Below are positions 1 through 52,185 of a DNA stretch of 64,000 bases, piece after piece (position 1 is the stretch's first letter; every line of letters begins with the position of its first letter). The stretch comes from Erodium maritimum (taxonomy: Eukaryota > Streptophyta > Magnoliopsida > Geraniales > Geraniaceae), in NCBI GenBank assembly GCA_963921825.1, contig OY997591.1, positions 14,875,515 through 14,939,514 of the forward strand, in the 5' to 3' direction. Under the pieces are notes generated by a model. It was given only the letters and a program-made list of their open reading frames with translations, did no database searches and was not told where the DNA came from. A program made the position numbers and the translations under genes.

Positions 1-261
1 CAAGACAATGAAACTGAGGGCGGCCATAAACACCTTCGCACAACAAGGTAATGATACTCTAGTTGAAGCATGAGAGAGATTTTGGGGTTTCCTGAGAAAG
101 TATCCCCGTCATGTAATTCCTTGTGGTTATACATGCAGACTTTCTACTTTGGGTTAAATGATCAAGGAGCTCAATTAGATTCTGCAACAAATGGATCTTT
201 TGTGAAAACATAACACCTGAAGAAACTAGGCACAATGAGTGTAGTTGACTCCTTGATGATG
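1..261 (+). mobile_element. Ty3/gypsy gag-like fossil fragment
   Basis: Plus-strand reading of about 60-210 resembles the Retrotrans_gag core of plant Athila/Tat-type Ty3/gypsy elements (EA-ERF--FLRKYP-H-IPCG, then a TFYNGL-like stretch). It is decayed, with several breaks. The left end is outside the window; on the right it is cut off where LINE reverse-transcriptase sequence begins. The integrase-type fragment at 2700-4339 probably belongs to the same fossil. Confidence 0.55.
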
Positions 262-2565
262 AAAAAAAACTAGACATTAGAAAGGCTTAAGACAGTGTGG
301 AGTGGTCCTTTATATTGTCCATGATGGGGGCGTACGATTTTAGTCCTTATTGGAGGGCGTTCATATTGGCATGTCTTTAGTTCATTCAGTACTCGGTCAG
401 TTCGAGGAGGAAGAGGACAAGATTGTTCATCGCGGGGCGAGGGATCTGTCATGGTAGCCCCACTATGTTTCTATATATTCCTCTTCTATATGGAAGGGTA
501 GTCTAGGATGTTGGGACATGCTGATAGGGAAGAGAGGATACATGGTTGTGTTGTGGCTCGGGAAGTACTAGTGGGGTCCTTATTTTCACCGACCGGAAGG
601 AAGGATTTCACATATATTTTTCACCGACGACTGCTACATATTCTGTCGGGCGGTCAACTGGAGGTAGAGCAGCTATATACTATACTCACCACATTTGGCA
701 ATCTTTCTTGCCATGCTATCAAAAAAGGAAAATCCCTCTATATATTTTTCAACACAAACACCGCCCCTGCTACTCGTTTGTTATGTTGTGCTACACTTGG
801 TATACAGGAAATATCCAGAAAATCTATGTATTTGGGTGTCCCCAATATGTTATTATAAATAAAGGCCAAAGCATGCAATCTATTTGCGATCGTCTTTTAA
901 AAACATTGCAGGTTGGGACGGCCAATTCCTGTTCGCGGGAGGGAAAGAAGTTATGGTCCAGTCTATGATGCATGCCCTCCCAATATACGCGATAAGTGTG
1001 TTTCTCTTACCGAAAGATGTGGTGACTAAGATACATGTGTCCCTCGCCAAGTATTAGTAGGAGAGTAGCTATTTGGATACGAAGCCTATCATATGGAAAG
1101 ACTAAGTGAAGATGTGCCAACCAAAAGATGAGGGGGGTTGGGATTTTGAGATATGAATGACATGAACTTGGCTCTCCTCGTCAAGATGGGGTGTGGATTC
1201 CTTTCCAAGCAAAACAGTCTGGTGGAGAGGGTGTTTAAGGTCAAGCACTACCAGACGAGGATTTTCTTAATGCGGATGGGGGAGAAACCCAAGCTACATT
1301 TGGTCGGGGGTCTGGGTTACACAAGAGCTGTTGCGTAGTGGCCTTCGAAGGACGATAGGGGATTGTAGTACAACGTTGGTGGGTGGGGTATTGTTGTTAC
1401 TAGGGGAAACCATGTGTATTCTTACGGATATAAATGGGGTACATGGACTGAAGATGCAGGAGCTGGTCGTGGAGGGGTGGGGAATGAAACCCGATCAGAC
1501 TAAGGGAGTTATTACTCTCGTAACTGGTCGAAGACATCCTCTAAGTGCCTCCACCAACAATGGGGAGAAGGGATATATGGTATCGGACTCTCAACCTCAG
1601 TGATAGTTACACATGTAAGGAGGGGTACAGTGATTGGCTCATGGTAGGTGGACGCCCATGAGGGTGCAACAGTTTAGACAATGATCTAGGACTTGGACAT
1701 ATAACCCCAGATTAAGGTGTTCCTATGGAGGGTCATTTCAGGTACTTTGCAGGTGGTAGTCAATCTACGGACAAAGTGGTTTCGATTCCGGTAGAGTGCT
1801 CGTGTACAAGATGAGTCGGGAGTCCACTTCTCACCTCCTACTATATTTCCCTTTTGCCTAGGAGGTGTGGGCCCGAGCGCACATGGGAATTGCAATCCTT
1901 CTTGAGTAGACTGTTTTGGACTAGTGGTCTCTGGTCATGGAGCACCCGAATATAACATTTAAGGCCTTGATGGCAATGATAGTTTGGTAAATATTGAAGG
2001 GACGCCCACCTCACCCACATCACTCTTACCCCAACCTAGCCTCGTTAGACGGACACCTGGTGGACCCCCTCCTCCCTCTAGGTTGGATTATAAGAAATAT
2101 AGACGAAGTCGTCTTCTCAAATACACACAAAATGGAATGGAGTATGATAGATGGAGATTTCTAGAGGGAAGGAATGACATCCTCCTAGGAGTACATGAGG
2201 TAGAAATTGTGGAGGCCACTATGATCCGGATGGCTCTATTTTGGGTGTGACGGATTGGGAATACCTGGGTTTTTGTCCAGAGTGATGCCCAGTATATTGT
2301 GGGATGAATCCTGGGGAGGATACCTCTATCTCCCAGGTAGGACGAATTTTAGAGGAAAGTCGAGATCTTTTATTATTTCTCGAGAATGTTCACCTCGAGT
2401 ATGTGACTTGGACAACTAACGGTGCCGGTCACTAACTAGTCGGGGAGGCCCATTCCGTGCCTGTTCTATCGTGGTCTGAGTTTGTAATACAGATGCATTT
2501 TTATGTACTTTACGAGCTTTTAAATGGAATCCTACGTCTCCACATTTCAAAAAATCCTAAGATAC
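262..2565 (+). mobile_element. LINE (L1-type) ORF2 remnant: RT, C-terminal region, RNase H
   Basis: In shifting plus-strand frames the order matches ORF2 of plant L1 elements. Around 270-500 is the RT palm start (DSVEWSFILSMMGAYDFSPYW, read with breaks, then a GCPLSP-like segment). Around 640-850 is the region before the YLGVP motif (QLEVEQLYTILTTFGNLS, then YLGVPNMLL). About 925-1340 holds the C-terminal stretch (VMVQSMMHALPIYAISVFLLP, then NLALLVKMGCGFLSKQNSLV). 2140-2480 resembles the RNase H tail (EA--IRMALFWV). It ends in an A-rich 3' end near 2552-2560. No frame is open over more than about 140 codons and there are many stops and frameshifts. The 5' part (endonuclease, ORF1) is missing, as in a 5'-truncated copy. 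It splits a Ty3/gypsy fossil. I found no convincing target duplication. Confidence 0.75.
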
Positions 2566-3046
2566 GGTGAGGAAAAAGTGGTGTAAAAGTGTTTACATGG
2601 ATAAAGCATGTTAGTACTGATAACACGTGCTTTAAAATTGGTGCGCATGATCATGTCATTCAAGAGAATTTTCATAAGTGGATTCAATATTCTTTTTGAA
2701 GCGTGTTTAGTTGAAAGCCTTAATGGATTACTTGCATGATTTTCATAAGTATATATGAGATGATGCTTTATTGTTTAAGGTTTGTGCAGATCATTCTTAA
2801 TAGGTGTGTCTCAAGCTCAGAAATACAAAATATTCTCTATTACTTTCATGGAGGAGAAGTGGGGGGCACTTTTGCGCTACCAGAATCGCAAGGTGATAAA
2901 ATCAGGTTTCCATTGGCTCACTATTTTTAAGGACGCATATGTCTTTGCCAAGTTATTTGATATGTGTCAGCAGACATGTAACGTATCTAAGTGGTAGGAG
3001 ATGCCAATGAACATCTACATTGAGGTAGAACTATTTGACTTATGAG

Positions 3047-3100
3047 GGATTGATTTCATGGTACCCTTTCTATGGTCGAATAATAATGAATATATTATTA
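3047..3100 (+). repeat. Left copy of 54-bp direct repeat flanking the 3101 element
   Basis: This 54-bp stretch abuts the left end of the inverted-repeat element and recurs directly at its right end (3565-3618) with a single mismatch. It has the topology of a target-site duplication but is far longer than the 2-11 bp usual for DNA transposons. It lies in integrase-like fossil sequence. Confidence 0.9.
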
Positions 3101-3564
3101 GGGTTAATTCCACCTCAGTACTCTAAATCTTTCATATTCATTTAGAGTACCCTAAATCTTTTTTGTGTCACCTCAGTACCCTAAATCTTTCATATTTCAT
3201 TTAGAGTACCCTAAATTTTTTTTGTGTCACCTCAGTACCCTAAAATTTTATTAATTCCATTTTAGTACTCTAAACTTTCATTAATTTCATTTTAGTACAC
3301 ACCGTTAACTCTACCATAAATTTGGTTGTTGGTGAGGGGTAGTATGGTCATTTTACCTGTTTTGGATGAAAAATCATATGTAAAGTTAACGGTGGGTACT
3401 AAATGGGAATTAATGAAAGTTTAGGGTACCGAGGTGACACAAAAAAGATTTAGGGTACTCTAAATGAATTAATGAAAGTTTAGGGTACTGAGGTGACACA
3501 AAAAATATTTAGGGTACTCTAAATGAAATATGAAAGATTTAGGGTACTGAGGTGGAATTATCCC
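3101..3564. mobile_element. Long-TIR non-autonomous DNA element (464 bp), flanked by 54-bp repeats
   Basis: Termini are inverted: left gggttaattccacctcagta, right the complement with one change. The TIR carries on as a phrase (cagtaccctaaatctttcat) repeated two or three times at each side, so the element can fold end to end over most of its length. The centre has TTAACGG-type words and an aggggtagtatggtcatttt motif that resembles the inner parts of the elements at 4349, 24135 and 39638. There is no coding capacity. The flanks are 54-bp direct repeats (3047-3100 and 3565-3618). By structure it belongs with the MITE/Mutator-like long-TIR elements; the superfamily is inferred. Confidence 0.8.
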
Positions 3565-3618
3565 GGATTGATTTCATGGTACCCTTTCTATGGTCGAATA
3601 ATAATAAATATATTATTA
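3565..3618 (+). repeat. Right copy of 54-bp direct repeat
   Basis: Second copy of the 54-bp repeat. It begins immediately after the element's last base and differs from the left copy at one base (a for g near its right end). Confidence 0.9.
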
Positions 3619-4348
3619 TATCAGTGGACTATATGCCTAAGTGGGTAGAGACCATGGCACTGCCTACTAATGACGACAAACCGGTGTGTGCATTTTTAAA
3701 GAAAAAACATTTTCTCCCTGTTAATTTATTGTGCCCAGGACACTTACTAGTGATGGTGGCAAGCATTCTTGTACCAAATTCTTTTGGAAAATCTTAGTTA
3801 GTTATAGAGTCACCCATCGACTTGGCATACCATATCACCACGATCTAATGATCAAGTAGAAGTGTCAAATAGAGAATTGAAGAGTATGTTGAAAAAGACC
3901 GTCAGTGCGATTAGGAAAAACTAGTCTACCAGGCTTGATATTGCTCTTTGGGTATAGATAATTGCTTTAGAAACATTTATTGGTTATTCACTTTATAGGA
4001 TAGTATATGGTAAATCGTGTTACCTTCCTGTTGAGTTAGACTTAACCTCTTTGCTTTATAACGCTAGGCTGAAGCTCATATCCGACAAGCTCGTTTTAAA
4101 GTGGAGTGGTCCATACCAAGTGACTAAGGCGCTTTCTAAGAGAGCCTTCAAGATCACCAACGACAAACAAGAACGGTTTGGGGAAATGACTAGAGAGTGA
4201 AGCACTATTATGGTCGGATGATTAGGAATGAGGAAGTATTCTTCCTACAAAAGCTCGAGTGTGAGGTTTAGTGTCGCCTTAGAGTTGGGTCATCAACATT
4301 AAACGAAGGCACTTCTTGGGAGGAAACTCTAGGTTTTGTTTACTTAAA

Positions 4349-5872
4349 GGGTTATTTACGATTCGGTACCCAAATGTTTCGTCCACGAACGATATGGTAC
4401 CCTTATGAATTTTTTTTCCAATTTGGTACCTTAAGTTTCGTCCACGAACGATTTGGGTTAACGGGGTTAAAAAACTAATAGGCCAAAGTGAAAAGACCAT
4501 TTTACCCTTTATCATTTTAGTTGACTTTTGACTTAAGTGTCAAAAGACTGTTGTACCCTTTTACTAGATTTAATTTCATTAACATTTTAATGAATTATTA
4601 ATAAAATCATTAATTTCTTTATCAAGTCTTATTTATTTTACTTTTTGAAATTTTAATAAATTCAATTATTTTACTTTTAAAAAAATCATTTTAATTTTAA
4701 AAAAACAGAATTTATATCTATATAATAATTAAATACATAAAAATCATTAATCAAACTAATTAAATAATATAATAAACAACTTTACCTAATTATAATAAAC
4801 AAAAAATTAAAAAAAAAACCCTATAACAAAATCTAACCTAACACACCCTGCATATCAAACCTACACACTAAAACGGATTTTATATCATCTTCTTTCTTGA
4901 GACCACAACGACGCCAATCTACTACTCCTTCCTTCGCCTTTGTTCGTGAGCTCCGACGAGAAAATGTCAAGGCCAGGCGAGACCACGGCAAGGCCAAGTG
5001 AGACCACGACAAGACGAGATGAGATCGCCGCTCGTTCTCCCCCTTCCACCGCCGCTCGTTCTCTTCTTTCCGACAACCTGGTTCGGGAGAAGAACACAAA
5101 GGGTGACCTAGTTCGAGAAATTTTCAGATCTAGTTCGAGCCTCAACTACAAATCTGAAAATTTTAAAACTTTGTGGAATAGTGTTTCAAATCTAGTTCGT
5201 CCCTCGATTTATGTTTCTGATTTTTAATATTGAAACTGGGTGGAATGGTGTTGAACGATGGGGTTGATTTGGATGAAGCAGGGGTTGATTTGGAAATGGT
5301 AGAACATGAACGTGGGGTTGATTTGAAGCTGGATCATTGTTCAATTTTAGGATGAGGTTGATTGTAAATTGTAGAACGATGATGAAGATGAAGTGTTTTT
5401 TCTGTAATTAATTAATAATATAAAAATAAAATTAATAAAGAAATAAAAGTATAAAAAAGAAATTTCGAAATTATTAACAAAAAAAATTAATTTTGTGAAA
5501 TTTAAACTAAAATAAATTATTAATGGAAAATAAAGGAATTGAAAAAAAATAGTATAATATTTTTTATGTATTTTTTATTTTTTATTATTAAATAGTATAA
5601 TATTAATTTAATTTATTATTATTAAACAAGGGTAAAATGGTAATTTCATATGTACAATTTATAAGGCTATAATAAGGAAGGGTAGAATCGTCACTTCACA
5701 CTCCACTTAACTGCACATGACTGATTTGGAGGAATACTCCATTAGTTTTCTAACGGAATATGTCAATTCCGTCCGTGGACAAATCATTTGGGTACCAAAT
5801 TGGTCATTTGAAACATAAGGGTACCATATCGTTTGTGGACGAAATATTTGGGTACCAAATCGTAAATAACCC
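4349..5872. mobile_element. Mutator-like long-TIR element (1524 bp), perfect 9-bp TSD
   Basis: Both ends read gggttatttacgatt(c/t)ggtac in inverted orientation, and TIR similarity extends at least 50 bp through cgtccac(g/a)aacgatatggt. It is flanked by a perfect 9-bp duplication, ttacttaaa (4340-4348 and 5873-5881), the size typical of Mutator-like elements. The core is AT-rich (T/A runs at 4560-4810 and 5400-5620) around a GC-richer island at about 4840-5230. The island has short open frames rich in Ser/Arg and could be captured host DNA, but I do not recognise it. No transposase was seen, so the element is non-autonomous. The subterminal parts carry ttaacggggttaa and gggtaaaatggtaattt words shared with the similar elements in this window. 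Confidence 0.85.
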
Positions 5873-5881
5873 TTACTTAAA

Positions 5882-7740
5882 TATGGATTTAATTTTAGTA
5901 TTTTTATTCTGCTCTATATTTGGATGCAAGTAGGTCGGGAATAAAAAAAATGGGAGTTCTCAAGACAAAAACCTGGTATGTGCCGGACCCAGATCCGCTT
6001 CATGCAGCCAACCATACCGGACCTAGTCACATTTTGGGCATGAGGGGGCCAAAAAATAGAGGCGTTTGGAGAAATATATGATTTTATTCCCGATTGGGCC
6101 GTAACCCGTGTTGAGCCCAATACAACCTCGTGCAACAAGCAATGCCGAACCCAATCATAGTATGTTCATAAGGCGAGCGAAAAATAGAGGAACCTGAGAG
6201 AATGTACCCCCTCAGGTGTGATCCATGCTGAACCCTAACACAATATGTGCACCGCTTCGCGCCGACCCAATTGTCCTCTTATTATGTTGTTTTCTGGATT
6301 TTCCCTTTATCCTTCAAATCTCTAAAACCTCATAAGTCTTTTCCTATCTCCTATTTCCTAACGCCTCCTCCTCCAACTTCAGCATTTCCTCTCGGAAGAA
6401 CCTTTATAGCCACATCTACCTTCCCTCACACACATGCCTCCACAACTACTCATCTCCACAACACCACATCAACTCTCATATCTACTATGAAACCCATTTC
6501 ACACAAAACATCCCAACACATCCCTAACCACCTCCAAGAACCTAGCTTTAGCGATAACTAAGGGGAAATTTTTAGGACAGGAACGGAGAAGAAGTAGTGC
6601 TCATCCATCGCAGACCCATTCACCCTTCGAGCGTCAGGATGTCGCAAACCCAATTGCTCCTCATGAGCCAGACCGTTGTGGATCAAGGCACCGGTTCATG
6701 CTCCGTCTCGTGTTGGGCCCATGCGCAATCCATCTCTAGCTCCGTTCCAGCTCCACAAACTTTAACTCATGTTAGTGAGTCTCAACGTCTTTTCCAAGAG
6801 CAGAGGAAAACACCCCCGCAGCCTAGTCATCGAGGCAAATAATGAACCTGAGCCAAGTGGATCAAGAGCCTGGGTATGCGACCAAGATACATTGGGGAAA
6901 CCGAGAAATACACCAACTCTAGAACGGCCCGTCCAACAACCACCAGCTCAATCACAATATCTAAGGACTAGGGCTTCCAACCCCAAGATAGGTACACTGA
7001 ATGGACCTTACTTAATTTTTTATAATGGTACTCATATGGATCACCTAAAAGTACATTTAGAGAGAGAGAGAGAGAGAGATTTTGCTCAACCGGTTCGCCA
7101 ATTAGGGTTTTATCCATGAAACCCTCGAGACGACTTTTTTGAGCAAATTAGTTTGGTTGATTATTCGAACCTTACACATTGGCACCCCCAACTTCAGTTT
7201 GTTTTCCTTTATATGTTTAGGATTTATAAGCGAACCTTTGAGTGGCATGTAGATTTTCTCCATATATAGGGCCTATCTTCTACGCTAAGTGTGTGAAAAA
7301 TATGGACTACCAGCAAGACCCACCTCAGTAGGCGGGTCGATTTGTATCATTTAATTTCTCCATTTTTTGCATGCTTGTTGCGTGTCTAACCGATACTATG
7401 ATGTTTCAGCAGTGCTCATTTTTTTTTTGTTATGGAGAACACTTCATTTCATGTTTATTTTATTTCTTGTACTTTTGTCGTGTGTTACTTTTTTTAGTTT
7501 GTGTCTCGCATAAGCTCTACCTATATGTGGTTTCTGGAGCAATACTTGAGTGGAATTTGTGGCCGCTCGCTTTGTCAAGCTAACATCGTCAAACAAATGT
7601 GTTAGTTGGTAGGCACCACAGGATCCTCATCAAGATGCAAGCCACACTATAATCCTTCGAATTGTTGTATCTCTTTCATCTATGTGTTACATTCACTCTA
7701 TTCGCTGTTTTCATCTTATCTATCATTTGGTGGATGTTAA
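5882..7740. other. Unassigned region, probably 3' part of the Ty3/gypsy fossil
   Basis: Sequence resumes after the 4349 element where the pol fossil left off. It contains short Pro/Thr/Ser-rich frames (6247-6561, 6597-6842, 6769-7119), a (GA)n run at about 7058-7079 and a T-rich stretch near 7420. Athila/Tat-type elements carry extra coding-like sequence downstream of pol, which would fit, but I see no diagnostic motif. No host gene could be supported here. Confidence 0.3.
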
Positions 7741-7761
7741 GCAATCGACTTATTATTTAGC

Positions 7762-7779
7762 AAGTCGATTAGTCTTGAT
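7762..7779 (+). repeat. Left target-site duplication (18 bp) of the 7780 retroposon
   Basis: aagtcgattagtcttgat occurs here and again, without change, at 8191-8208 just after the insertion's A-tail. Confidence 0.9.
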
Positions 7780-8190
7780 ATCAATAGTTTGGCTTAGGCT
7801 TTCGTAAGCCTCCCTATTTGCGCTTCATGGTAGTCAAACTCGAGTAGCTAGACCCCTTTTTTTCAAGATAAATCAGGACTTCATGGTGGTCAATACGGGT
7901 TCCAGACTCTGTTTCATTTTTAGCTTCTTTTCTTGTGTGGTGTTTGTTTTCATCTGTATTTTTGGGTTGTATGGTTGAAAGTTTTTGGTTGTAGGTGTTG
8001 TTGATTGTTATTTAGGGTCTGCTTTCCCCTCTTGAATGTTTTGGGGGTTGTCTTTGATTTTGGGTTGTAGGTCTTGCTGGGTGTTCTTCAGGGTTTGTAT
8101 ACCCTTTTTGGAGTCTATAGCTGGATTCATTCGTTCACTCATCTTCCTTCTCATAAGAGGTTTAATATAAATTTGTCTTGGTGATAAAAA
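7780..8190 (+). mobile_element. Short non-LTR retroposon (411 bp) with perfect 18-bp TSD
   Basis: The inserted segment ends in an A-tail (gtgataaaaaaa) directly before the right duplication, so it was copied in the plus orientation. The last part (ggtttaatataaatttgtct) looks like the 3' end of plant LINEs. I saw no convincing pol III A box; a weak B-box-like ggttccagactc lies near 7898. A 5'-truncated LINE 3' end is the likeliest identity, with a SINE as alternative. The unmutated duplication suggests a fairly recent insertion. Confidence 0.75.
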
Positions 8191-8306
8191 AAGTCGATTA
8201 GTCTTGATTGTGTTAAGATTCAATGACAGAGAACTTGTTATATTTGTGAGTTCAGCTCAAATACAAATACTAACTTGAATAAATACGGAGGTGAATTTAT
8301 ATTAAA

Positions 8307-9579
8307 TTTTTTTGCGCAAAAGTTGCAATATTTTTATATCGAAGAAGCCATTACATTACCGTGCATCGAGGAACAGGCTCCTCAACCACAAAAAGGACAG
8401 ATTAGATGAACAATGGTTCTTTCATCCTTGTAAAACCATAACCGTCACAAGCGGTATTTTGACGCCTCATGGGCAGGGACAGAATACGAAAAAGGGGAAG
8501 GGGGTGCCGGAAATCCTGAAGGATCTCAACAGTGGTGATGGTGGGAGGCAAAACATCTTCATGGGACCCCTCCCAAGGCCAGTCCCCGATGCTCATCCAG
8601 CCTCTCATTCCTCCTGGCGGGGTTGCTTCCCCGCCCTGACCTGCTCCTCCCGAGGTGCTCCAGTTGTCGACCTCTTGAGTGATCTAGTGCCCTCTCTAAA
8701 TACTCTAGCAAGTGTTGGAGACCCGCCAGGGAAGCCTGAAGGTCCGAGCCTAAGTCAGCCGAGGGTGGAGCGACTTGCTCTATGTCCAAGTGTTGCGATC
8801 GATCCCGCGTCATTCCTCTCGGGGTCACGAGGCACGTCGGGATGAAGGGTATCTTGTCCTGATCGGGGAGGAAACGGCCTAACCCCAGAGCCACCCACTG
8901 GCGTCTTAGGAAGTTCCCCCATGGGTGCCTTCCCCTAGGCCGGATCTCGCTGTAGCGGCGGTGCCCTACTAGGGCTAGAACCTGACGCAGTCACAGCCCT
9001 AACCCATGCACCCGGAGTTAGGGGAACTAGGGCAGACTCGTGTCGCGAGGGTGAAGTAACCCTATCTGGTGCACCACCATAGAGAGGATGAGCTAAGACC
9101 AAGTTTGGAGGAGGGCCTGATGATGGCGTAACCCTAGAAATCGCGCCACCCTGGAAGGGAAGAGCCATAGCGAGGTCATGGCTACTTGGGGGGGGGGGGG
9201 GGTTGTGAAATAGGGTTTGGAGGGGTATGGCTAGGAGACAACACGTCTCGGCTTGGCGACCAGGGCCGGAAGGCTGGTCCCTAGGAGAAGAAGACCCCAT
9301 CCAAGACCGCTCTCAGATTAGGGAGTATCGGCGTTGGCAACAGAGGTGGGGAGGTAGTGGGAGCCAGAGTCGGCTTGGGTTTCCTCCTTCGACGGCTCGT
9401 ATCCCCAACACCATGGGCAGTCTGCAGGGGACAAGACAATGCAAGGGGAACATCACTAATCAGAGGTACGACATCAGCTACGGGCGAAATCACCGCATAA
9501 AATATGTCGACGGTAGGGATAGAGAGCACCATAGCTTTTGTGCGGTTAGGACTAGGAGAGGATCTAAAAATTGAGAGAG
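8307..9579 (-). mobile_element. LINE-derived insertion, minus strand, no RT
   Basis: A T-run at about 8307-8313 marks the 3' end of a minus-strand element. The body is GC-rich, and minus-strand frames at 8559-8894 and 8935-9300 are Pro/Arg/Gly-rich, like 5'-UTR/ORF1 leader sequence of the LINEs in this window. The flanks gtgaatttatat(t)aaa (8291-8306) and gtgaatttatat (9585-9596) look like its target duplication. A G-run lies at about 9188-9201. No DUF4283 domain, zinc knuckle, endonuclease or RT was recognised. The element is degraded. Confidence 0.55.
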
Positions 9580-9596
9580 TTTTTGTGAATTTATAT
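9580..9596 (+). repeat. Left 17-bp target-site duplication of the 9597 LINE
   Basis: tttttgtgaatttatat is repeated exactly at 12005-12021. It also overlaps the right-hand duplication of the neighbouring insertion at 8307-9579. Confidence 0.85.
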
Positions 9597-9980
9597 TTTT
9601 TTTGAAACGGTTAACCGAAGACTTTCATTAATACCAAAAGGTAATCAAACAAGACAGGGCGTGACCGCCCTGGGTTGCAAATGTATGTCCGAGCCGACCG
9701 TAGTAGGCCCAGCGCTCATGGACCCATAATAATAGCCTACTTGAAATCGTAGGCAAAAACTCAAGACAACTCCTTACTAGCGTCTCAAAACAGCGAGACA
9801 TAAAGTGAAAAGTCCTAATCAGCGCAATAAATAAATTGTTCCAGAAATAATGCAAATAACGAGAAAGCAGATAAGAAAACTGTGTTGTTGTTGCAGGCTG
9901 CCCGGGACCTCCCAGCACTGGCTGTCCCGGGTCTGTAGGTATAGTCCGATATCGACTCCACCCACCCCTGTCGGGTCGGT

Positions 9981-11690
9981 TCATTCCTGCATAGGAGGCT
10001 GCTTTGCCTCCGCCTGCTCCTCCCTGTCCCCCTCAGTGTTAGCTGGCTGGTTGATGTCTGGTGGGTGGGTCGGATGATCCAACAACTTCTTTGATCCCGG
10101 TGGTCGAGCATACGACGACCCGCTCGTAGTCTTCAGGGATGACTTCTTGGCCCTCCCCCGGATGGACCCCGCTTTCCCTAAAGCTTCTTGGAAATCTTTC
10201 TCCTTCCCCGCCCGAGTCCCTACAGAGTCTGTGGGCTCGACAGGAGTAGGAGGATTTCCAGTAGGGTGGAAGTTAGCCAGGTTGTCAGGCTTTATGAATC
10301 CCGGTGGCCCTCCACCGGCTCGGCCCCCTCCACCCTGTATCACATTGATTACCCCTCCTGAGGTAATCATAGCCAGATTGTCAAACTTCGAAGGAACGTC
10401 TGCAGCAGAGAAACCATCCCCCATGACGACCTCATTGGAGTGTATCACAGGGTTCAGGGATAGCCCATTCATGAGATCATCAACAGCTGAATGTGCCAAT
10501 GAAGGGGGTGTATGCCAGACCGTCTTCAACAAACGATCCACATCCATCTGCCTTGGTACCAGGATAGTCGTGTCGTATCGGACCTCCTCCCGGCTATACC
10601 CGGAAAATGAGTCGTACACCCCATAATTCGATGTGTCATCATCCCAATAATTCGATGTGTCATCATCCCACACCTGCGACAGAGGTCCGTGAGCCTCTCG
10701 TATTGCAGCTTAATCAGCGAAGAGGAAGCAGTGCCTGGGAACCTGAGGCGGAGTCGTCTCTGGAGAGGCCGGTTCAACTCCATCCGCACCCGCAACCATA
10801 AGAACAAGTCGTCCCGCCGGACATAGGGAATTGGGGCCGACACCACCTGAGTACCAATGTTATCTGCAATCAGACCGCGGACTTGCGGATTCCTGGCCCC
10901 CATCGGGACATTCAGTGCCCGGGCCCCAAGCTCGATGTGACTGAACACAATCTCATTTGCCTGGACATATGGCCTGAGGGGTTCCAGCAGTACAGGGAAA
11001 CCCTTGAAGATCCAAGGACCCCTATGGCGGATATTCTCCATCGTTGCAACGGACGGGAAGTGATATCCCGTGACCTCCGAGGACATGTACTCAACCTGAA
11101 TGTCATCCACCTTCCATTTCTGCAGCATCATTGCGCAGACAGCATTCTGATTGTTAATCTGATCCCCTACAACCCGGGCTGCTAGGGAGAACTGATAAGT
11201 TCCCTTGGTGAATGCCAGGACCGCTTCCTCCGGGACCACCACCTCGCCGTCGTCATCCTCCCAGTCCGGAACCGGGGAGATACGGACCGAGCTCGCCTCC
11301 CCCTGGCGCGCAATATGCCCATAGCTACTTGACGACCGAGTACTCGATCCCGCTGCATGGCCTACCGAAGGACGATATCTGGCCACGGCCGCCAGAGATT
11401 GTGGTCGAGGAAGGAGCGACGGTTCCAAATGACCTCCCCCTGCCCCCGGCGGACTCCGTCCCTGACCCGAGTGGGGCTGCGGAGCCACTAAGGCTAGGGT
11501 TCCGTCCGGCTCCCCACCTGGCTTATCCTTCAAGGTGAGAGGGTCGACCGTTCGACGGTGATCAGGTGGAGGATGAAGGAGGGCATCGGAGGGAGCAGCA
11601 CGAATGTGACATCAGGCAAAAACCTCGCCAGAGCAGGAGACTGTGGCTGTTGAGACTCGGCGACGGGTTGGATCTTATCGGTAGCTTCCA
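9981..11690 (-). pseudogene. LINE ORF1 (DUF4283 + CCHC knuckle), frameshifted
   Basis: ORF1 starts near 11690 (MEATDKIQPVAESQQ). It changes frame near 11530 into a 335-codon frame (11533-10526) and changes again near 10610 into a 230-codon tail frame ending at 9981. The 335-codon part holds the DUF4283 RRM-like domain typical of plant LINE ORF1/gag-like proteins (EEAVLAFTKGTYQFSLAARVVG, then MLQKWKVDDI, GPWIFKGFPVLLEPLRPYVQ and LRVRMELNRPL). It is followed by a zinc-knuckle start (YERLTDLCRRCG). The knuckle is distorted by a perfect 24-bp in-frame tandem duplication (10623-10670) that repeats GMMTHRI. The tail is Gly/Pro/Ser-rich with a basic patch (GRAKKSSLK). The product would bind element RNA. 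About two frameshifts make it non-functional. Confidence 0.8.
10623..10670 (-). repeat. 24-bp tandem duplication inside the zinc knuckle
   Basis: Two identical 24-bp units (10623-10646, 10647-10670). Without one unit the motif would read as a regular CX2CX4HX4C knuckle (CRRCGMMTHRIMGC). With both units the spacing is lengthened by eight residues. Confidence 0.9.
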
Positions 11691-12021: not shown

Positions 12022-12881
12022 AAATTGTACACAAACCCGTTACTGTTTGTGTTACTAATATCATAATGATGAAAAATAAAAAGAATTGGGAAGAGACACA
12101 ACATATGGATATATGATAGGGGTGCAATAATTTAACACATATAGGTGCCATCACCATTGACTGAACGTTGTTTTGGAATCTTCTTCGAAGCTGTCTCACT
12201 TGCATGCGCAGTGCCTCCTTCTAGCTACTACTTGCTTCTTTCCCTATCGATGAACTTTTCATTCAACTTATTACGTAACGCTACGTGTCCCTCTCCATAT
12301 CCTGCTCCTGCTTCCTGCCCCAAAGGCAGTACACTGTTCATATCAAATGTAAAGTCCTCCACTCATTATCATGGAATCACATTTCAAGTCCCTCTTCTGT
12401 CCTTTACCCCTACACCCTTTTCATTATTGTCTAATTATTCACATCTTTCATACATAAATCATACCTATTTCTCCACATCTACCATTAGGATTGACATTTT
12501 CTTCTTGTATTTTCTACTTGGATATGCTTATCCAATCAACCTACATTGCCCACACAACAAAACCAAATACAAACATTTCATTCTCACTACACCAATCATT
12601 TCATCAACTCTTGCTACCACCAAACAGCTTTGCTACAACAAAATTAGATATGATCATCAACTCTTGCTACCACCAAACAGCTTTGCTACAACAAAATTAG
12701 ATATGATTATCCACTCGTACCTTTGTTTTTTTACAGAATTGTATTTTTGTTCCCTGGTATGTGAATTGGCATAACCAACAATGTCACTACAACACATATA
12801 ATATAAGTATATATAGACTAATACTCATAGCATGGCTTTAGTCAGGGAGAAAATGGAACATACGATAAATGCTGCTGAGGT
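12022..12881. other. Spacer downstream of the TSR2-like gene
   Basis: AT-rich, C/T-biased sequence that would include the 3' UTR of the minus-strand gene ending at 12882. A long open plus-strand frame (12145-12774) lacks any recognisable domain and is probably chance. A perfect 53-bp tandem duplication lies inside it. Confidence 0.5.
12601..12706 (+). repeat. Perfect 53-bp tandem duplication
   Basis: Two identical 53-bp units (12601-12653 and 12654-12706), starting tcatcaactcttgctaccac. The lack of divergence points to a recent slippage or repair event. Confidence 0.95.
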
Positions 12882-16079: not shown

Positions 16080-16247
16080 GCTAATTGTCATGGGCCCGCT
16101 TAAATTAATTAATCGGTTATTTGGGTTGGGCCCATATCGAATAACTGAATTATAGGTAAATCAGTTACTAATCCCGTCTCATTTTGTTCCCTTCATCACA
16201 GATCTCAATAATTTTTTTGATCCTCCACTGCACTGTACCCACCGCCA
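16080..16247. promoter_or_regulatory. Shared promoter between TSR2-like gene and CML
   Basis: Only about 170 bp separate the possible TSR2 start codon (16077, minus) from the CML start (16248, plus). The gap holds two GGGCCC-type words (catgggcccgct near 16090 and ttgggcccatat near 16127). These match the TGGGCY 'site II' and GGCCCAWWW elements known from plant growth and ribosome-biogenesis promoters. A bidirectional promoter is an inference from layout and motifs. No clear TATA box faces the CML. Confidence 0.5.
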
Positions 16248-16739
16248 ATGGCCACCGATGAGTCGATCGCGGAGCAGAAACCGCCCGTGCAGATCGATAA
16301 CATGGAAGAGGTCCAGAAGATCTTCAACAGCATGGACACGGACGGCGACGGCTTGATCTCCGCCACCGAGCTCGCGTGCGTCCTCCAGGACCTCGGCGCC
16401 GCCTACGCCTCCGCCGACATCACGGAAGTCATGAATGATCTCGACACCGACCGAGACGGATTCATCAACATCTCGGAATTCGCTAACTTCTGCGGTACCG
16501 GCGACGCTGACGGTGAAGGCGGCGTGTCCGAGCTCCGCGACGCCTTCGAACTGTACGATCAGGACCACAACGGCCTGATCTCCGACGCCGAGCTCCACCT
16601 GGTTCTGAACCGGCTGGGAATCGCCTGCTCTGTGGAAGATTGCGGTCGCAAGATAGCCTCCGTGGATTCCGACGGCGACGGCAATGTTAATTTCGAGGAG
16701 TTCCAGAAGATGATGACCGGTAGCAAGCAATCCGGGTGA
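16248..16739 (+). CDS. Calmodulin-like protein, four EF-hands (CML26/27 type)
   Basis: Intronless 163-residue protein with four canonical EF-hand loops: residues 30-41 (DTDGDGLISATE), 66-77 (DTDRDGFINISE), 104-115 (DQDHNGLISDAE) and 140-151 (DSDGDGNVNFEE). Each has Asp/Asn at positions 1, 3 and 5, Gly at 6 and Glu at 12, so all four should bind calcium. The N-terminal 17 residues are a variable extension. The linker between hands 2 and 3 is a short Gly/Asp-rich loop. The stretch RLGIACSVEDCGRKI and the ending FQKMM resemble Arabidopsis CML26/CML27. There is no signal peptide or lipid-anchor motif, so a cytosolic/nuclear calcium sensor is expected. The start ccaATGGCC has good plant context. 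The codons are GC-rich, unlike the AT-rich flanks. Its nearest paralog is at 29186-29665. Length and motifs are complete and the gene looks functional. Confidence 0.95.
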   Translation: MATDESIAEQKPPVQIDNMEEVQKIFNSMDTDGDGLISATELACVLQDLGAAYASADITEVMNDLDTDRDGFINISEFANFCGTGDADGEGGVSELRDAFELYDQDHNGLISDAELHLVLNRLGIACSVEDCGRKIASVDSDGDGNVNFEEFQKMMTGSKQSG

Positions 16740-29112: not shown

Positions 29113-29185
29113 GCCTTAAACGTATTCGTCCACAAGTACTGTACTTCTATTTTCTACATCACAGATCTCAATTTCTTGACCGGCC

Positions 29186-29665
29186 ATGACCACTGCCGAG
29201 TCGATCCCGGAGCAGAAGCCGTCCGTGCAGCTCGAAGACATGGGCGAAGTCCAGAAGGTCTTCAACAGCTTCGACACCAACGGCGACGGCCTGATCTCCG
29301 CCACCGAGCTCGCCAACGTCCTCCAGGTCCTCGGTTCCGCCTACGCCTCCGCCGACATCAAGGCCGTCATGGAGGAGCTCGACACCGACCGCGACGGATT
29401 CATCAACCTCTCCGAGTTCGCCTCCTTCTGTCGCTCCCCCGCCCCCGACGGCGGCGTCTCCGAGCTCCGCGACGCTTTCGATCTCTACGACCAGGACCAC
29501 AACGGCCTGATCTCGGCCGCCGAGCTCCACCTCGTCCTCAACCGGCTCGGCATCTCCTGTTCCGTGGAAGATTGCGGCCGCATGATAGCCCCCGTGGATG
29601 CCGACGGCGACGGCAATGTCAATTTCCAGGAGTTCCAGAAGATGATGACCAACAGCAAGCCGTAA
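29186..29665 (+). CDS. Calmodulin-like protein, four EF-hands (paralog of 16248 gene)
   Basis: Intronless 159-residue protein. EF-hand loops are at residues 30-41 (DTNGDGLISATE), 66-77 (DTDRDGFINLSE), 102-113 (DQDHNGLISAAE) and 138-149 (DADGDGNVNFQE), and all calcium-ligand positions are filled. By hand alignment it is roughly four-fifths identical to the CML at 16248, with most differences in the N-terminal tail and the linker between hands 2 and 3, which is two residues shorter here. C-terminal features (LGISCSVEDCGRMI, PVDADGDGNVNF) are close to Arabidopsis CML26/27. Expected role: cytosolic/nuclear calcium sensor. The 5' leader shares catcacagatctcaat with the other copy, and the 3' flank is also similar, so the two arose by local duplication. 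Promoter sequence upstream of the leader is unrelated (a TATA box here, GGGCCC words there), which suggests different regulation. Confidence 0.95.
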   Translation: MTTAESIPEQKPSVQLEDMGEVQKVFNSFDTNGDGLISATELANVLQVLGSAYASADIKAVMEELDTDRDGFINLSEFASFCRSPAPDGGVSELRDAFDLYDQDHNGLISAAELHLVLNRLGISCSVEDCGRMIAPVDADGDGNVNFQEFQKMMTNSKP

Positions 29666-32641: not shown

Positions 32642-32929
32642 ATCGCAATTCCTCGACACGAAGTCGGATCAGGCTGTCGACCTTTCAAACTCGCAATTCC
32701 TCGACACTAAGTCAGATCAGGCTGTCGACCTTTAAAACTCGCAATTCCTCGACACTAAGTCGGATCAGGCTGTCGACCTTTAAAACTCGCAATTCATCGA
32801 CACTAAGTCGGATCAGGCTGTCGACCTTTAGAACTCGCAATTCATCGACACTAAGTCGGATCAGGCTGTCGACCTTTAGAACTCGCAATTCATCGACACT
32901 AAGTCGGATCAGGCTGTCGACCTTTAGAA
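32642..32929 (+). repeat. 48-bp minisatellite, six units
   Basis: Six tandem units of 48 bp; the later ones begin ctcgcaattc and contain tcgaca...tgtcga, a 6-bp stem with a 16-nt loop. Units differ by only a few bases. The array lies 577-865 bp from the TGTCACG end of its element. Confidence 0.95.
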
Positions 32930-33079
32930 CTCACCACCCCAGGTAACCACAATCACAATCACAGGCAAGTTCAATCACACAGGCACTCAAGGCCACTCAA
33001 GACACCTCAACAGTCAAGACTCGGGTTCAACAACCCCACGGGCACTCGCTGCCACTCAAGACACCAAATTAAATACACG

Positions 33080-43323: not shown

Positions 43324-45136
43324 GGCGTGCGAACCCTAATGGTTCGCTACTGTTCATCGTCTGCCTCCTCGTCTTCTCCCTCTGCGAACCCGACCTCGCC
43401 GAACTTCTCCCTCCGTTCTCTTTCCCTTCCCTTCGTCCGGCTTCACTCTTACCTTCCCCTACCTCTTCTGCTAGATCGAGACCCTATACATCTCCTGTGT
43501 GAGAACCGAGCGTTCGCCGGAGAGTTTAGGTCGGTTCGCGCTCTCCGGGTCTGAATCGACCCTTATCTTCCCCATCATCTTCTTTCCCGACCTCACTTCC
43601 CTCAGATCTCGGTGGTTCCAAGCTCGATTCGAACGGTTTGGTGTTGGAACCACCGCCGGCGACCTCGCTAGCCGTAGATCCGGGGCGAAGTTTGGCTTCT
43701 GGCACCGTGGCTGACACTCTAGCCCTCGTCCAGTCTTTTCCCGAGCTCTCTCCGGCACCTCGCGTTGGGTTCTGGACCTCGCCGCCGCCGGAGACGGTGC
43801 CGGAGTGCACGCACCTTCGCCGGAGCTGAGAGAACTCGGAGACGGGCCTGAACCGGGCTTTGGGCCAAGCCACGTAGTGGGCCAGCTGGTCTTGGGCCGG
43901 AACCCAAGCTCGGGCCAGAGCTTGGGCCGGACGTGGGTCAGGCCCAAGTCTTCGGACTAGGTTCTGATCCGGGTCCGGACCAGGTCTGACTCGGGTCAGA
44001 TCCGGGTCTGGGACCGGATCCGGGTCAGGCGTGGATTCGGGTCTGGATCCGGGTTTGGACCGGGTCTAGACCCGGGTTGAGCCGGATCCGGGTCGACATA
44101 AATTATTAATTAATTTAATAATTATTTTGACTTAAAAATGCTTTATTTAAAGGACGTTTTGGACCTTACGAGGACCTTGGTTATACTGGAACTGAGTATA
44201 CCTTTTTACCTGTTAAACTCAGGCTTGGGCTTCGTCGAGAAGACCGGAGTAAAACCATATTCGGATTTCGGGGACTTCGCCTTGGAAGACGGTGTTGGCC
44301 CGGTCGTCCGCATCTAGAAGATGCCGCCGTGTTATCGACTTGAGGTAGGGAAGTAGCGGATAGCGCTTTAATTACGGATGTCACTAGTATGCATGATTAG
44401 GGTTAATAATAATAATCGGAAAGATCATAGCTTGGCATGTAGGATACGAACAAGTAGCGTAGACGTTTGAACTGTGAATATTTACGATTCGTGTCTTGGG
44501 AATTGTCGTGCTGGTAGATCCGGGCCACGTCGTGCCTGTAGGATTGTCTGCTGAGTGTGCCTTGTGTTGTTTGAACGGCTAATAAGTAACGAACATGAAA
44601 AAGAATAGAATGGAACTAGTGATGCATGCTGATTACCTGTGTGGTTATTTCCTGTTTATTCGATATGTTGAATTGTGGGATAGTTGGGGATTTAATACCG
44701 GTTAAGCCGGCGGGGTTACCCCATGGAGAGTGGAGACGGTAAGTGATGGTAAGTACGTGACGGTTTTGAGTGTGTTTAAGAGTCTAATACGATCTATTCG
44801 TTGTTGCATATCGTGATTGTGTGTGGGAAAGTGTGTCATGTTTGATAATGTGAACCCTTGTTTGTGTTATGACCGGGTGAGTGATAGACCGTCTGTCTGT
44901 GCATTTGTTGAGATGGTCTGGTTGGTATACCGAGACCATCAGTGTTTGTACGGTGTGTTAGTTCCTGTTTTTGGGTGTTCCAAGAGACGGCGTAGCCGGG
45001 GTGGACTTACACGAGAGTTAGATCCGGTGAAGCGTATCGAGGCCAAGGATGGCGGGATCAGTACCCGATGATTCGTGGTCCGGGACGATGGTTGACCGAG
45101 GCGTGTACCGATCTTGTACATATTGCTGAGTAGTAA

Positions 45137-45312
45137 CCCTTCGTCTGTGTGCGGAGGAGTATAATACCCCCACGTCTGTGTGCGTGGAACCCTTCGTCTG
45201 TGTGCGGAGGAGTATAATACCCCACGTCTGTGTGCATGGAACCCTTCGTCTGTGTGCGAAGGAGTACAATACCCCACGTCTGTGTGCGTGGAACCCTTCG
45301 TCTGTGTGCGGA
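45137..45312 (+). repeat. 52-53-bp minisatellite, 3.4 units
   Basis: Each unit has two hairpins with the same loop tctgtgtg: ccttcg...cgaagg (or a variant) and ccacg...cgtgg. It lies about 840-1010 bp from the CGTGATA end. Confidence 0.9.
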
Positions 45313-45866
45313 GTAAGTTATTGGGTTTGATGCTGCATAGTCCGGTACGATAAAAGTGTCGGTGTGCCTCCGATGGTATGACTTATGCTGTTCTACGACA
45401 TCTGTGTGTGTCTTGTCGTGTGCTGTATTCTCATTGGTCGGATATGTGCTTTCGGATGAGTATGTGTAACGTTGTATAAATGGGCAGTAATGGGGAAATG
45501 TGTTGTTGGACTCTGTGCATTGGTTAAGTGTGACTTTGGTCTTGTGAGACTGTTTGGGGACATGGGGGTTGTTGTAACTGTTTCCAGTGTTGTCGTGCAA
45601 GTTCGCACGTGTATCTGTTTACTAAGATAGTCGTGGGCTTGCTTTCTGAGGATTGTTGGGTGATGAGTGTCAAGGGATAGTTGTAGAAAGTGGTCTGGGT
45701 TCGGGTCATTGTGAGTTGGTTCTACGGGTTGTACCCGAGTAAAGGCCAAGTGTTGTTTTGGAGTGACCGTTGTCTGGTTTTAATAATTGTGATTACTAGT
45801 ATGCCCTAATTGGACGGTTACCCGTGGTGATGAACTGTAGTTCAAATCCTTAACTACTTTTCCTAC

Positions 45867-46260: not shown

Positions 46261-46426
46261 CAGTAATAGTTAGTTTCGTCATAGTTTGGTTTTAACTTGT
46301 CTATATGACTTTTCCAATATCGTTTGTAACGACTCATCTGTCTCAAGTTATTTGTAAAAAGATTTTTTAGGGCTCTGTACAATATAATGATTTTTTTTAT
46401 TTGAATGAAATATATGCATCTTTTAG

Positions 46427-46429
<3 letters not shown>

Positions 46430-46474
<45 letters not shown>

Positions 46475-46489
46475 ATGCATCTTTTAGTA

Positions 46490-46527
<38 letters not shown>
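46430..46527 (+). repeat. Duplicated (TA)n microsatellite
   Basis: Two (TA)n tracts (about 46430-46467 and 46493-46527), each preceded by gaaatatatgcatcttttag. A ~63-bp unit has been duplicated together with its microsatellite. Confidence 0.9.
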
Positions 46528-47014: not shown

Positions 47015-48702
47015 TGTTAGTCTTAGTGCCCGTAGTTCAATCCTAAATGTCCAAATGTATATATCATCGTTAGCAATAAAATTAAAGCGGCTTTATATTA
47101 CTTATGTGTTGGAGTAATATATCGATGTGTGCTCTGATCTATGCCCACCATGCGAATAGAACCATAGATCGAGATAGATCACACTCGATGGGTCCCTAGT
47201 CAACAAAGCTTCACTAGAAGCGACTAGTATGAAAGATGGCTCTTTATGGCTTACGTTCTGTTAGTCATTGGAATGAGATTCCGGAGTCTGATCATAGATA
47301 TCATGTGGGACATGATATTGGACGACCCGCCCTGAATATGTGCCATAGATTAAGTCATGAACATATTCAGTGTTGTAGCTTGTCATGTATCCTTAGACCA
47401 AGGAGTCTTTGTGATCGTTATGTAGTCAACAACTGAGTTTGACCTGAGCCTAACGTTGTCCGTAACAGGGCTTCCATAACGGCCAGGATTGGCTTGGGGA
47501 CGGGCTACATGAGTGACACGAAAGACGGCTAAGGGATTTATCCCTCATACTAAGGTATGGGAAAGATATCGGTTCTCGGCCACTTGATCGAGAGTGACTG
47601 GAAGAATAGCATGGCCATGCACATGATACTGGGTATCATATCTTCAGTCATCTCACATATCAAGGAACGGTGATTGAGAATAATAAGGATGACGGCTCTA
47701 TGCCTTATCTCAATCAGGATATCGGAGATAAAAGGATAATGACAGGGACGACGGAAAGGTTAGAATCGACAGGGTCGATTCGTTATGTAGTGTCAGGAAA
47801 TACTAAAGTCTCGTTAGTTTCCACTTAAATAGGATCAAGTAAAATGGGATTTTACGTTGATCTATTGACATGCATAAACCTAAGGGTCACACCGGAGGAT
47901 GAAACTCATTGACACATTTACGGAGAATGGCCAAAAGGGAGTTGTCTCGGGACATGACCAAAACTGGGTTTTGGGTCATGTGCCCGTACGTGAATAGGAC
48001 TTTACGGATCGAGACAAGGCTTGGAGTCTTGGGATTGATCGCGTCGGATAATGTTGGACATTTCCGGTATGGAAGGCTTGGAGGCGATGAGCGAATCACG
48101 GGACCTCGTTGGAAATGGCCACGGGCCATGTTCCAAGAGGCCCATGAAAGGCCCATGCAACCAAGGCCCATGGAACTAATTAATCAAGTCTTGATTAATT
48201 AGTACTAAGTAAGCAAGACAAGGATTAAGGTGTTGGTGATTCACCACCTAACCCAATCTTGTCTTGCCATACTTTGTCCTATTTACACCTTACTTGACAC
48301 CATACTTGTCCCATGCCTTTAGTTGGACAAGTATGGGTTTTGTTATGTTTAATTCATCTTTTTTCAACATAACAAACACAAGACAAGAATAGGAAACACA
48401 TTTTCTCTCCCTCTTCCATGGCCATTTCGGGTTTGGCTAGTTTCCACCTCCATGTTTGTGTTCTTGAGTCATCAAAGAGAAGAACTACGTGGCTTTGATT
48501 CCCATGTGGATACGTAGGCGTCTTGGAGACTCAAGCCAATCATTCGTTAACCGGTGTTCTTGTTTTGGTAAGAACTAGTGCTGAATTTTTCTCTTGTGAA
48601 TCCATTCTTTGTTAGTTGTTTCATGGTTTTAATCGTCTCTTGGTTTTCATTGATTTTCCGCTGCGAGTTGGTTCATCTCCAACCCTACCTCGAGACCCAA
48701 CA

Positions 48703-50770: not shown

Positions 50771-52185
50771 ACTCTATAGAGCTACATCTCTCTACTTCCA
50801 AAGATTCATGGGTATTAGATACCATGACTGAATCTCACACATGCACTAATATATGGTTGCTGAAAGTAGGAGAGATTTGGAAAGCACGAAATGGACCTCA
50901 GAGTTGTGGCAACTGCTGTAGGATCCATGAGTCTTGCTTTGCCAAGAGGCCTTGTCTTAGTATTGTATAATGTATATTGCATACCTACTTTTAGTAGGAA
51001 TATTATATCTGTATCCGTGTTTGACAAGGAAGGATATAATGTTAATATTGGAAATGGAGTTTTCAATGTTCTATGCAATGATATGTTTTATACCAGTACT
51101 GACATGGTTGGAGGATTGTACATATTAGATATGGGTAACAATGCCTCAAGTTCTATATATTCCGTTAATACCAAGAGGTCTAAATCCAACGATTTAAACC
51201 TAACTCTGTTATGGTACTGTCATTTGGGTCGCATAAACAAGAAGCGCCTATCAGCACTTCAGAAGTGCGGGCTTTCAGGTTCATTCGAATTCCATTCGAT
51301 CGATAGGTGCAAGGTTTGTTTGATGGGCAAAATGACTAAAGTGCCCTTTATCGATCGCGATGAAAGGGCGGGTGAATTATTGGGGCTGATACACTCGAAT
51401 GTGTGTAGACCAATAAGTTCACTTGCCAGGAGGGGTTTTAGCTACTTTATCACATTTACTGATGATTACAGTAAATATGGTTATGTCTATTCGGTGAGAC
51501 ATAAGTCTGAAGCTTTTGATAAATTCAAAGAGTTTAAGACTATAGTAGAAAACCACGGGCCATGTTGGAAATGGCCACGGGCCATGTTGGAAATGGCCAC
51601 GGGCCATGTTCCAAGAGGCCCATGAAAGGCCCATGCAACCAAGGCCCATAGAACTAATTAATCAAGTCTTGATTAATTAGTACTAAGTAAGCAAGACAAG
51701 GATTAAGGTGTTGGTGATTCACCACCTAACCCAATCTTGTCTTGCCATACTTTGTCCTATTTACACCTTACTTGACACCATACTTGTCCCATGCCTTTAG
51801 TTGGACAAGTATGGGTTTTGTTATGTTTAATTCATCTTTTTTCAACATAACAAACACAAGACAAGAATAGGAAACACATTTTCTCTCCCTCTTCCATGGC
51901 CATTTCGGGTTTGGCTAGTTTCCACCTCCATGTTTGTGTTCTTGAGTCCTCAAAGAGAAGAACTACGTGGCTTTGATTCCCATGTGGATACGTAGGCGTC
52001 TTGGAGACTCAAGCCAATCATTCGTTAACCGGTGTTCTTGTTTTGGTAAGAACTAGTGCTGAATTTTTCTCTTGTGAATCCATTCTTTGTTAGTTGTTTC
52101 ATGGTTTTAATCGTCTCTTGGTTTTCATTGATTTTCCGCTGCGAGTTGGTTCATCTCCAACCCTACCTCGAGACCCAACACCAGG

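Follow-up and report, generated by a model that had tools for sequence, protein, structure and literature searches.

The 54-bp direct repeats that flank a 464-bp inverted-repeat element in the window (the whole stretch of 64,000 nucleotides that was analysed) consist of two parts, an ordinary 9-bp target site duplication (positions 3092-3100 and 3610-3618) and a 45-bp copy of the left flank (3565-3609). The order along the DNA is left flank, target, element, 45-bp copy, target and right flank. The arrangement looks like a one-off repair-type junction, of a kind already known, in an ordinary transposon family, and a new integration mechanism gains no support from the 54-bp flanks. What looks like a target duplication of 54 bp can be a 9-bp duplication accompanied, at one end, by filler that repair has copied in. 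Such a false long duplication is exposed when each junction is scored on its own against the target signature of the family.

The element is exactly 464 bp long and runs from 3101 to 3564. These boundaries were confirmed, because other copies of the family end identically. The termini, GGGTTAATTCC on the left and GGAATTATCCC on the right, form inverted ends. The outer terminal inverted repeats are 38 nt long (3101-3138 on the forward strand and 3527-3564 on the reverse strand) and are 95% complementary to each other. The longer inner arms (3137-3268 and 3396-3527) are 90% complementary, and 59-bp sub-repeats are located inside the inverted ends. The element contains no open reading frame of 90 or more amino acids, and an Rfam scan of the window yielded no match that reached the cut-off. 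Overall, it has the properties of a MITE, being short (464 bp), non-coding, bounded by inverted ends and present in high copy number. Two other pairs of inverted repeats are found in the window, at 4347-4430/5791-5874 and at 24127-24201/25539-25613. Their arms are 75-84 nt long and 1.34-1.36 kb apart, and they are possibly further transposon ends.

Judged by its sequence, the element is read as a MULE-like MITE that is common in the host genome, which comprises 763 Mb in 40 contigs. A genome search with the element found 39 other copies that are 93-96% identical to it among the best 40 candidates scored, and it showed full copies with the same ends. The 21-base end, with at most one mismatch, has 225 forward and 225 reverse matches (450 ends), and the reversed control gave 0 + 0. 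The likeness to MULEs comes from the GGG...CCC termini, the TA-rich targets and a target duplication of about 9 bp, which has no more than one mismatch in 66 of the 74 other copies that could be scored. A Mutator-like element of barley, Hvu_Abermu, is likewise described with termini of the GGG...CCC type and with long inverted repeats, and its targets are also TA-rich and duplicated over 9 bp (PMC9168764). However, Hvu_Abermu is 8,176 bp long, whereas the present family is a non-coding MITE of ~465 bp, and the two are likened by description, not by sequence. The GGG...CCC ends do not match GAG, which is given as the Mutator end consensus in PMC4423477. Matches to the MULE domain are abundant in the genome (at least 150 scored). 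Among the matches listed on contigs C1-C4 (51 ends and 74 MULE places), the nearest family end and MULE are 89.5 kb apart, and no MULE transposase with the ends of the family was found there.

The flanks of 79 other copies were fetched, 39 of which were the best-scoring copies and 40 of which had an exact end on contigs C1-C5 among the matches listed. In five of them (L102, L110, L113, L116 and L136) one end or the other is not recognisable, and these were left out, so that the scoreable set consists of 74 copies with both ends present. The 66 copies with an AT-rich 9-bp duplication of at most one mismatch comprise 35 of the 39 best-scoring copies, where a shift of up to one base was also allowed, and 31 of the 35 scoreable copies of the exact-end set. 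The other eight (L006, L008, L070, L097, L104, L119, L127 and L129) carry degenerate duplications, which contain 2-3 mismatches or are displaced by 1-2 bases. BLAST of the flanks (59 to 150 bases each) detected a repeat abutting both ends in none of the 74 copies, and a long duplication does not recur across the insertions of the family in this set. An ungapped scan of the same copies flagged only L003, and that weakly, with AT-rich repeats of 28 bases at 82% identity beside a perfect 9-bp duplication. Repeated sequence occurs in both flanks of L003, L081 and L098, yet all three have kept perfect 9-bp duplications. With the window copy included, filler-bearing junctions are found in one of 75 scoreable copies. 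The family also has shorter variants (L112, L124, L127, L128 and L129), which are 435-450 bp long compared to the usual 465 bp and have duplications that are still near 9 bp. In L116 the direct target duplication is absent, and the right end stops after GGAATTAT, with the final CCC missing.

In the window copy, the two 54-bp repeats (3047-3100 and 3565-3618) abut the element and are equal at 53 of 54 bases. The sole mismatch is G at 3088 against A at 3606. When window positions 1-3100 were compared by BLAST with positions 3565-10000, the 54-bp repeat was the only match, and its E value of 4e-22 excludes a chance match. The original prediction of a 464-bp element with matching inverted ends between 54-bp flanks that differ by one base is thus borne out by both alignment and BLAST. 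Its description of the flanks as a 54-bp duplication is correct as far as the repeat is concerned, but the last 9 bases are the ordinary target duplication and only 45 bp are extra.

The division into 9 and 45 bp is based on the target preference of the family. A target matrix was constructed using only the 40 full copies with perfect 9-bp duplications, in which the G+C content is 0-2 of 9, and the 992 9-mers of the local joined sequence served as the ranking background. The 9-mer at the left junction, ATATTATTA (3092-3100, forward strand), has a score of 3.61 and ranks 4 of 992; 16 of the 40 true sites have the same score or a lower one. The left end of the MITE therefore sits in a normal target of the family. 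The 9-mer at the right junction, GGATTGATT, which constitutes the first nine bases of 3565-3609, scores -15.2, and none of the 40 true sites is as low. The signature is thus present at the left junction of the window copy and absent from the right one. The left 9-mer recurs at an offset of 45 bp from the element, at 3610-3618 on the forward strand. The intervening 45 bp (3565-3609, forward strand) are a copy of 3047-3091 on the same strand with A at 3606, and they adjoin the MITE precisely at its right terminus, with no shared bases at the junction. Just inside the junction, GAATTAT and GACTTAT match at 6 of 7 positions, a weak similarity that was noticed post hoc and is equalled at 0.6% of local positions.

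The element is hosted by a decayed fragment of an integrase region (2750-4040, forward strand), which is interrupted at 3101-3618 and has relatives in the genome that are ~75% identical. From the domain order, we take this region to be gypsy-type. One relative, L040, encodes the rve (PF00665) and Integrase_H2C2 (PF17921) domains. A Pfam search with the 76-residue open piece of the window's own fossil resulted in one match below the cut-off and no integrase. The relatives were found with each flank separately, with the best 40 candidates scored per flank, and their 58 loci represent 51 distinct copies. All 58 loci align across the site without any deletion within the 54 bp. At the insertion site itself, 56 loci have no insertion, and the other two have insertions of 2 bases and, in L028, of 23 bases; the 54 bp are present once in 57 of the 58 loci. 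In the exception, L028, 23 bp inside the region equivalent to the 54 bp are perfectly duplicated in tandem (2.0 copies, 100%, at about 1824-1869), and the MITE is absent from it. At the position of the mismatch, all 58 loci carry G. The window's right copy, with A at 3606, is therefore the derived one, and the source copy at 3047-3091 has retained the ancestral G at 3088. Among the best 40 candidates per flank there is no allele or close copy of the window locus. Since the nearest relatives are ~75% identical, the pre-insertion state deduced from them corresponds to the ancestral layout rather than to the allele that directly received the MITE.

The age of the repeat was compared with that of the insertion. 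Private substitutions were counted over 63 copies, the window copy included and copies outside 455-470 bp excluded, and the window MITE has 7 of them in 464 bp. If the 54 bp had been duplicated at insertion, 1.6 differences would be expected between the two copies, and one is observed. Duplication at about the time of insertion agrees with this single difference, and the timing does not separate the rival readings.

The MITE was probably inserted normally at one end, while its other end was joined by host repair involving templated synthesis. This reading is favoured because 66 of the 74 other copies have 9-bp duplications and none has a repeat abutting both ends. The original prediction had reasoned that the usual 9-bp flanks elsewhere would point to a one-off repair event, and the tabulation of the flanks turned out in that direction. 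In the proposed course of events, the MULE-like MITE would have entered the old integrase sequence at the target ATATTATTA. Either its left end alone was joined normally, or its right end may have been freed later by incomplete excision. The right-hand target arm could then have been lengthened by repair synthesis templated on the left flank, on the sister chromatid or on the homologue, which would have copied 45 nt past the 9-bp target. If the extended arm was then end-joined to the MITE precisely at its right terminus, the product would mimic a 54-bp target duplication. The extra 45 bp equal the opposite flank but for one base and abut the MITE end, as a repair duplication would, the break being the step that we infer. 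Because these 45 bp start exactly at the MITE terminus, they are suggestive of a free transposon end and not of a random later duplication. The original prediction included a repair-mediated duplication after a failed excision. Repair gives the best fit, but a failed excision is only one possible history, and a failure to complete the insertion is equally possible.

The same product would be obtained if the free right end were ligated to a nick 45 nt off its normal position, followed by gap filling. A doubtful but conceivable form of this is one-ended transposition, in which the transposase joined the left end only, leaving the right end to be ligated 45 nt away, at an off-site nick or on the sister chromatid. 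If this is true, cut-and-paste elements occasionally make false long target duplications, which are misread by annotation. Paired nicks are said, in one report, to yield tandem duplications in plants.

Components of the repair reading have parallels in described systems. In rice, 58 of 94 transposon excisions contained fillers, which were 1-123 bp long (PMC4423477), and junctions of T-DNA in Arabidopsis contain templated end-joining fillers, some of which come from the opposing end of the break (PMC10923293). The window copy resembles them in having extra DNA at a junction, derived in some of those cases from the opposing end, but it differs in that the element has stayed in place, with the filler adjoining one end of it. 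Proximal repair-mediated duplications in human, which bear marks of synthesis-dependent strand annealing (PMC2671141), are also short copies of nearby DNA put in at a break and are attributed to that process. They differ in having been described in vertebrates and, as characterized in that source, in having no tie to a transposon end. In the composite insertions produced by alternative transposition of Ac/Ds (PMC4270019), transposition together with replication and repair duplicates the flanking DNA as well, but the process involves the ends of two elements, the duplications are far larger and normal 8-bp target duplications surround them. Among the titles listed in literature searches on long target duplications, on MITEs of the MULE type that have 9-bp duplications and on insertions that are aberrant or one-ended, none concerned a structure such as the present one. 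Several observations count against repair. Transposon insertions are generally precise and fillers are found at excisions, according to Roffler and Wicker (PMC4423477). Furthermore, filler and target adjoin without any gap, as they also would after a tandem duplication, and L028 demonstrates that such duplications arise in this region without the element.

L028 also makes it more credible that the 54 bp were already in tandem in the host copy, which is the main alternative to the repair reading. The MITE would then have inserted into the final 9 bp of the first of the two units, and the right 9-bp duplicate would have been lost later. One of the 51 distinct copies, L028, carries such an element-free duplication in the same region, tandem repeats of similar unit length are present at other places in the window (units of 53 bp at 12601-12716 and of 61 bp at 46405-46527), and L003, L081 and L098 show that insertion near repeats does happen. 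On the other hand, these three copies retained their 9-bp duplications. Insertion exactly at a tandem junction, one of the explanations in the original prediction, is expected to leave 9 bp repeated directly on either side of the element. Such a repeat is absent, and an additional, exact loss of 9 bp is required. The single-copy state of 57 of the 58 relative loci also speaks against a tandem, although their divergence is too great for a private duplication to be excluded. On balance, a pre-existing tandem is unlikely, with a chance that is small but appreciable.

The other explanations are much less probable. A true 54-nt stagger made by the transposase, with normal strand transfer of both ends at positions 54 nt apart, would account for flanks that agree at 53 of 54 bases and lie precisely where a target duplication should. 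The widely staggered break of the original prediction is nevertheless disfavoured, and it was rejected as the main reading since only the left junction bears the target signature of the family. The right-junction 9-mer falls below all 40 true sites used, and duplications in the 74 other scoreable copies are of ~9 bp, which renders such a stagger very improbable. Recombination or template switching after insertion might have used any of the 450 near-identical ends as a partner. For example, 45 bp, target and MITE could have been duplicated in tandem, with one MITE then exactly lost, or two insertions lying 54 bp from each other could have given rise to a chimera. A history of this kind is hardly to be expected either, because it needs two events or a breakpoint that coincides exactly with the MITE terminus, and the right junction is unlike the target of an independent insertion. 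That the 54 bp were duplicated at the border of the element by an error of assembly is extremely unlikely, as the duplicate carries its own substitution (A at 3606) and the junction lies exactly at the element end, which a random misassembly would hardly choose.

Short tandem duplications are not rare in the window. Tandem repeats with units of 48-61 bp are located at 12601-12716, 46405-46527, 32643-32932 and 45135-45313, and in two of these the unit occurs only about twice. The window also contains longer direct repeats. The pair at 16241-16728 and 29179-29660 is 82-88% identical and ~12.9 kb apart, and the 300-bp repeats at 48101-48400 and 51579-51878 are 99% identical and separated by 3478 bp.
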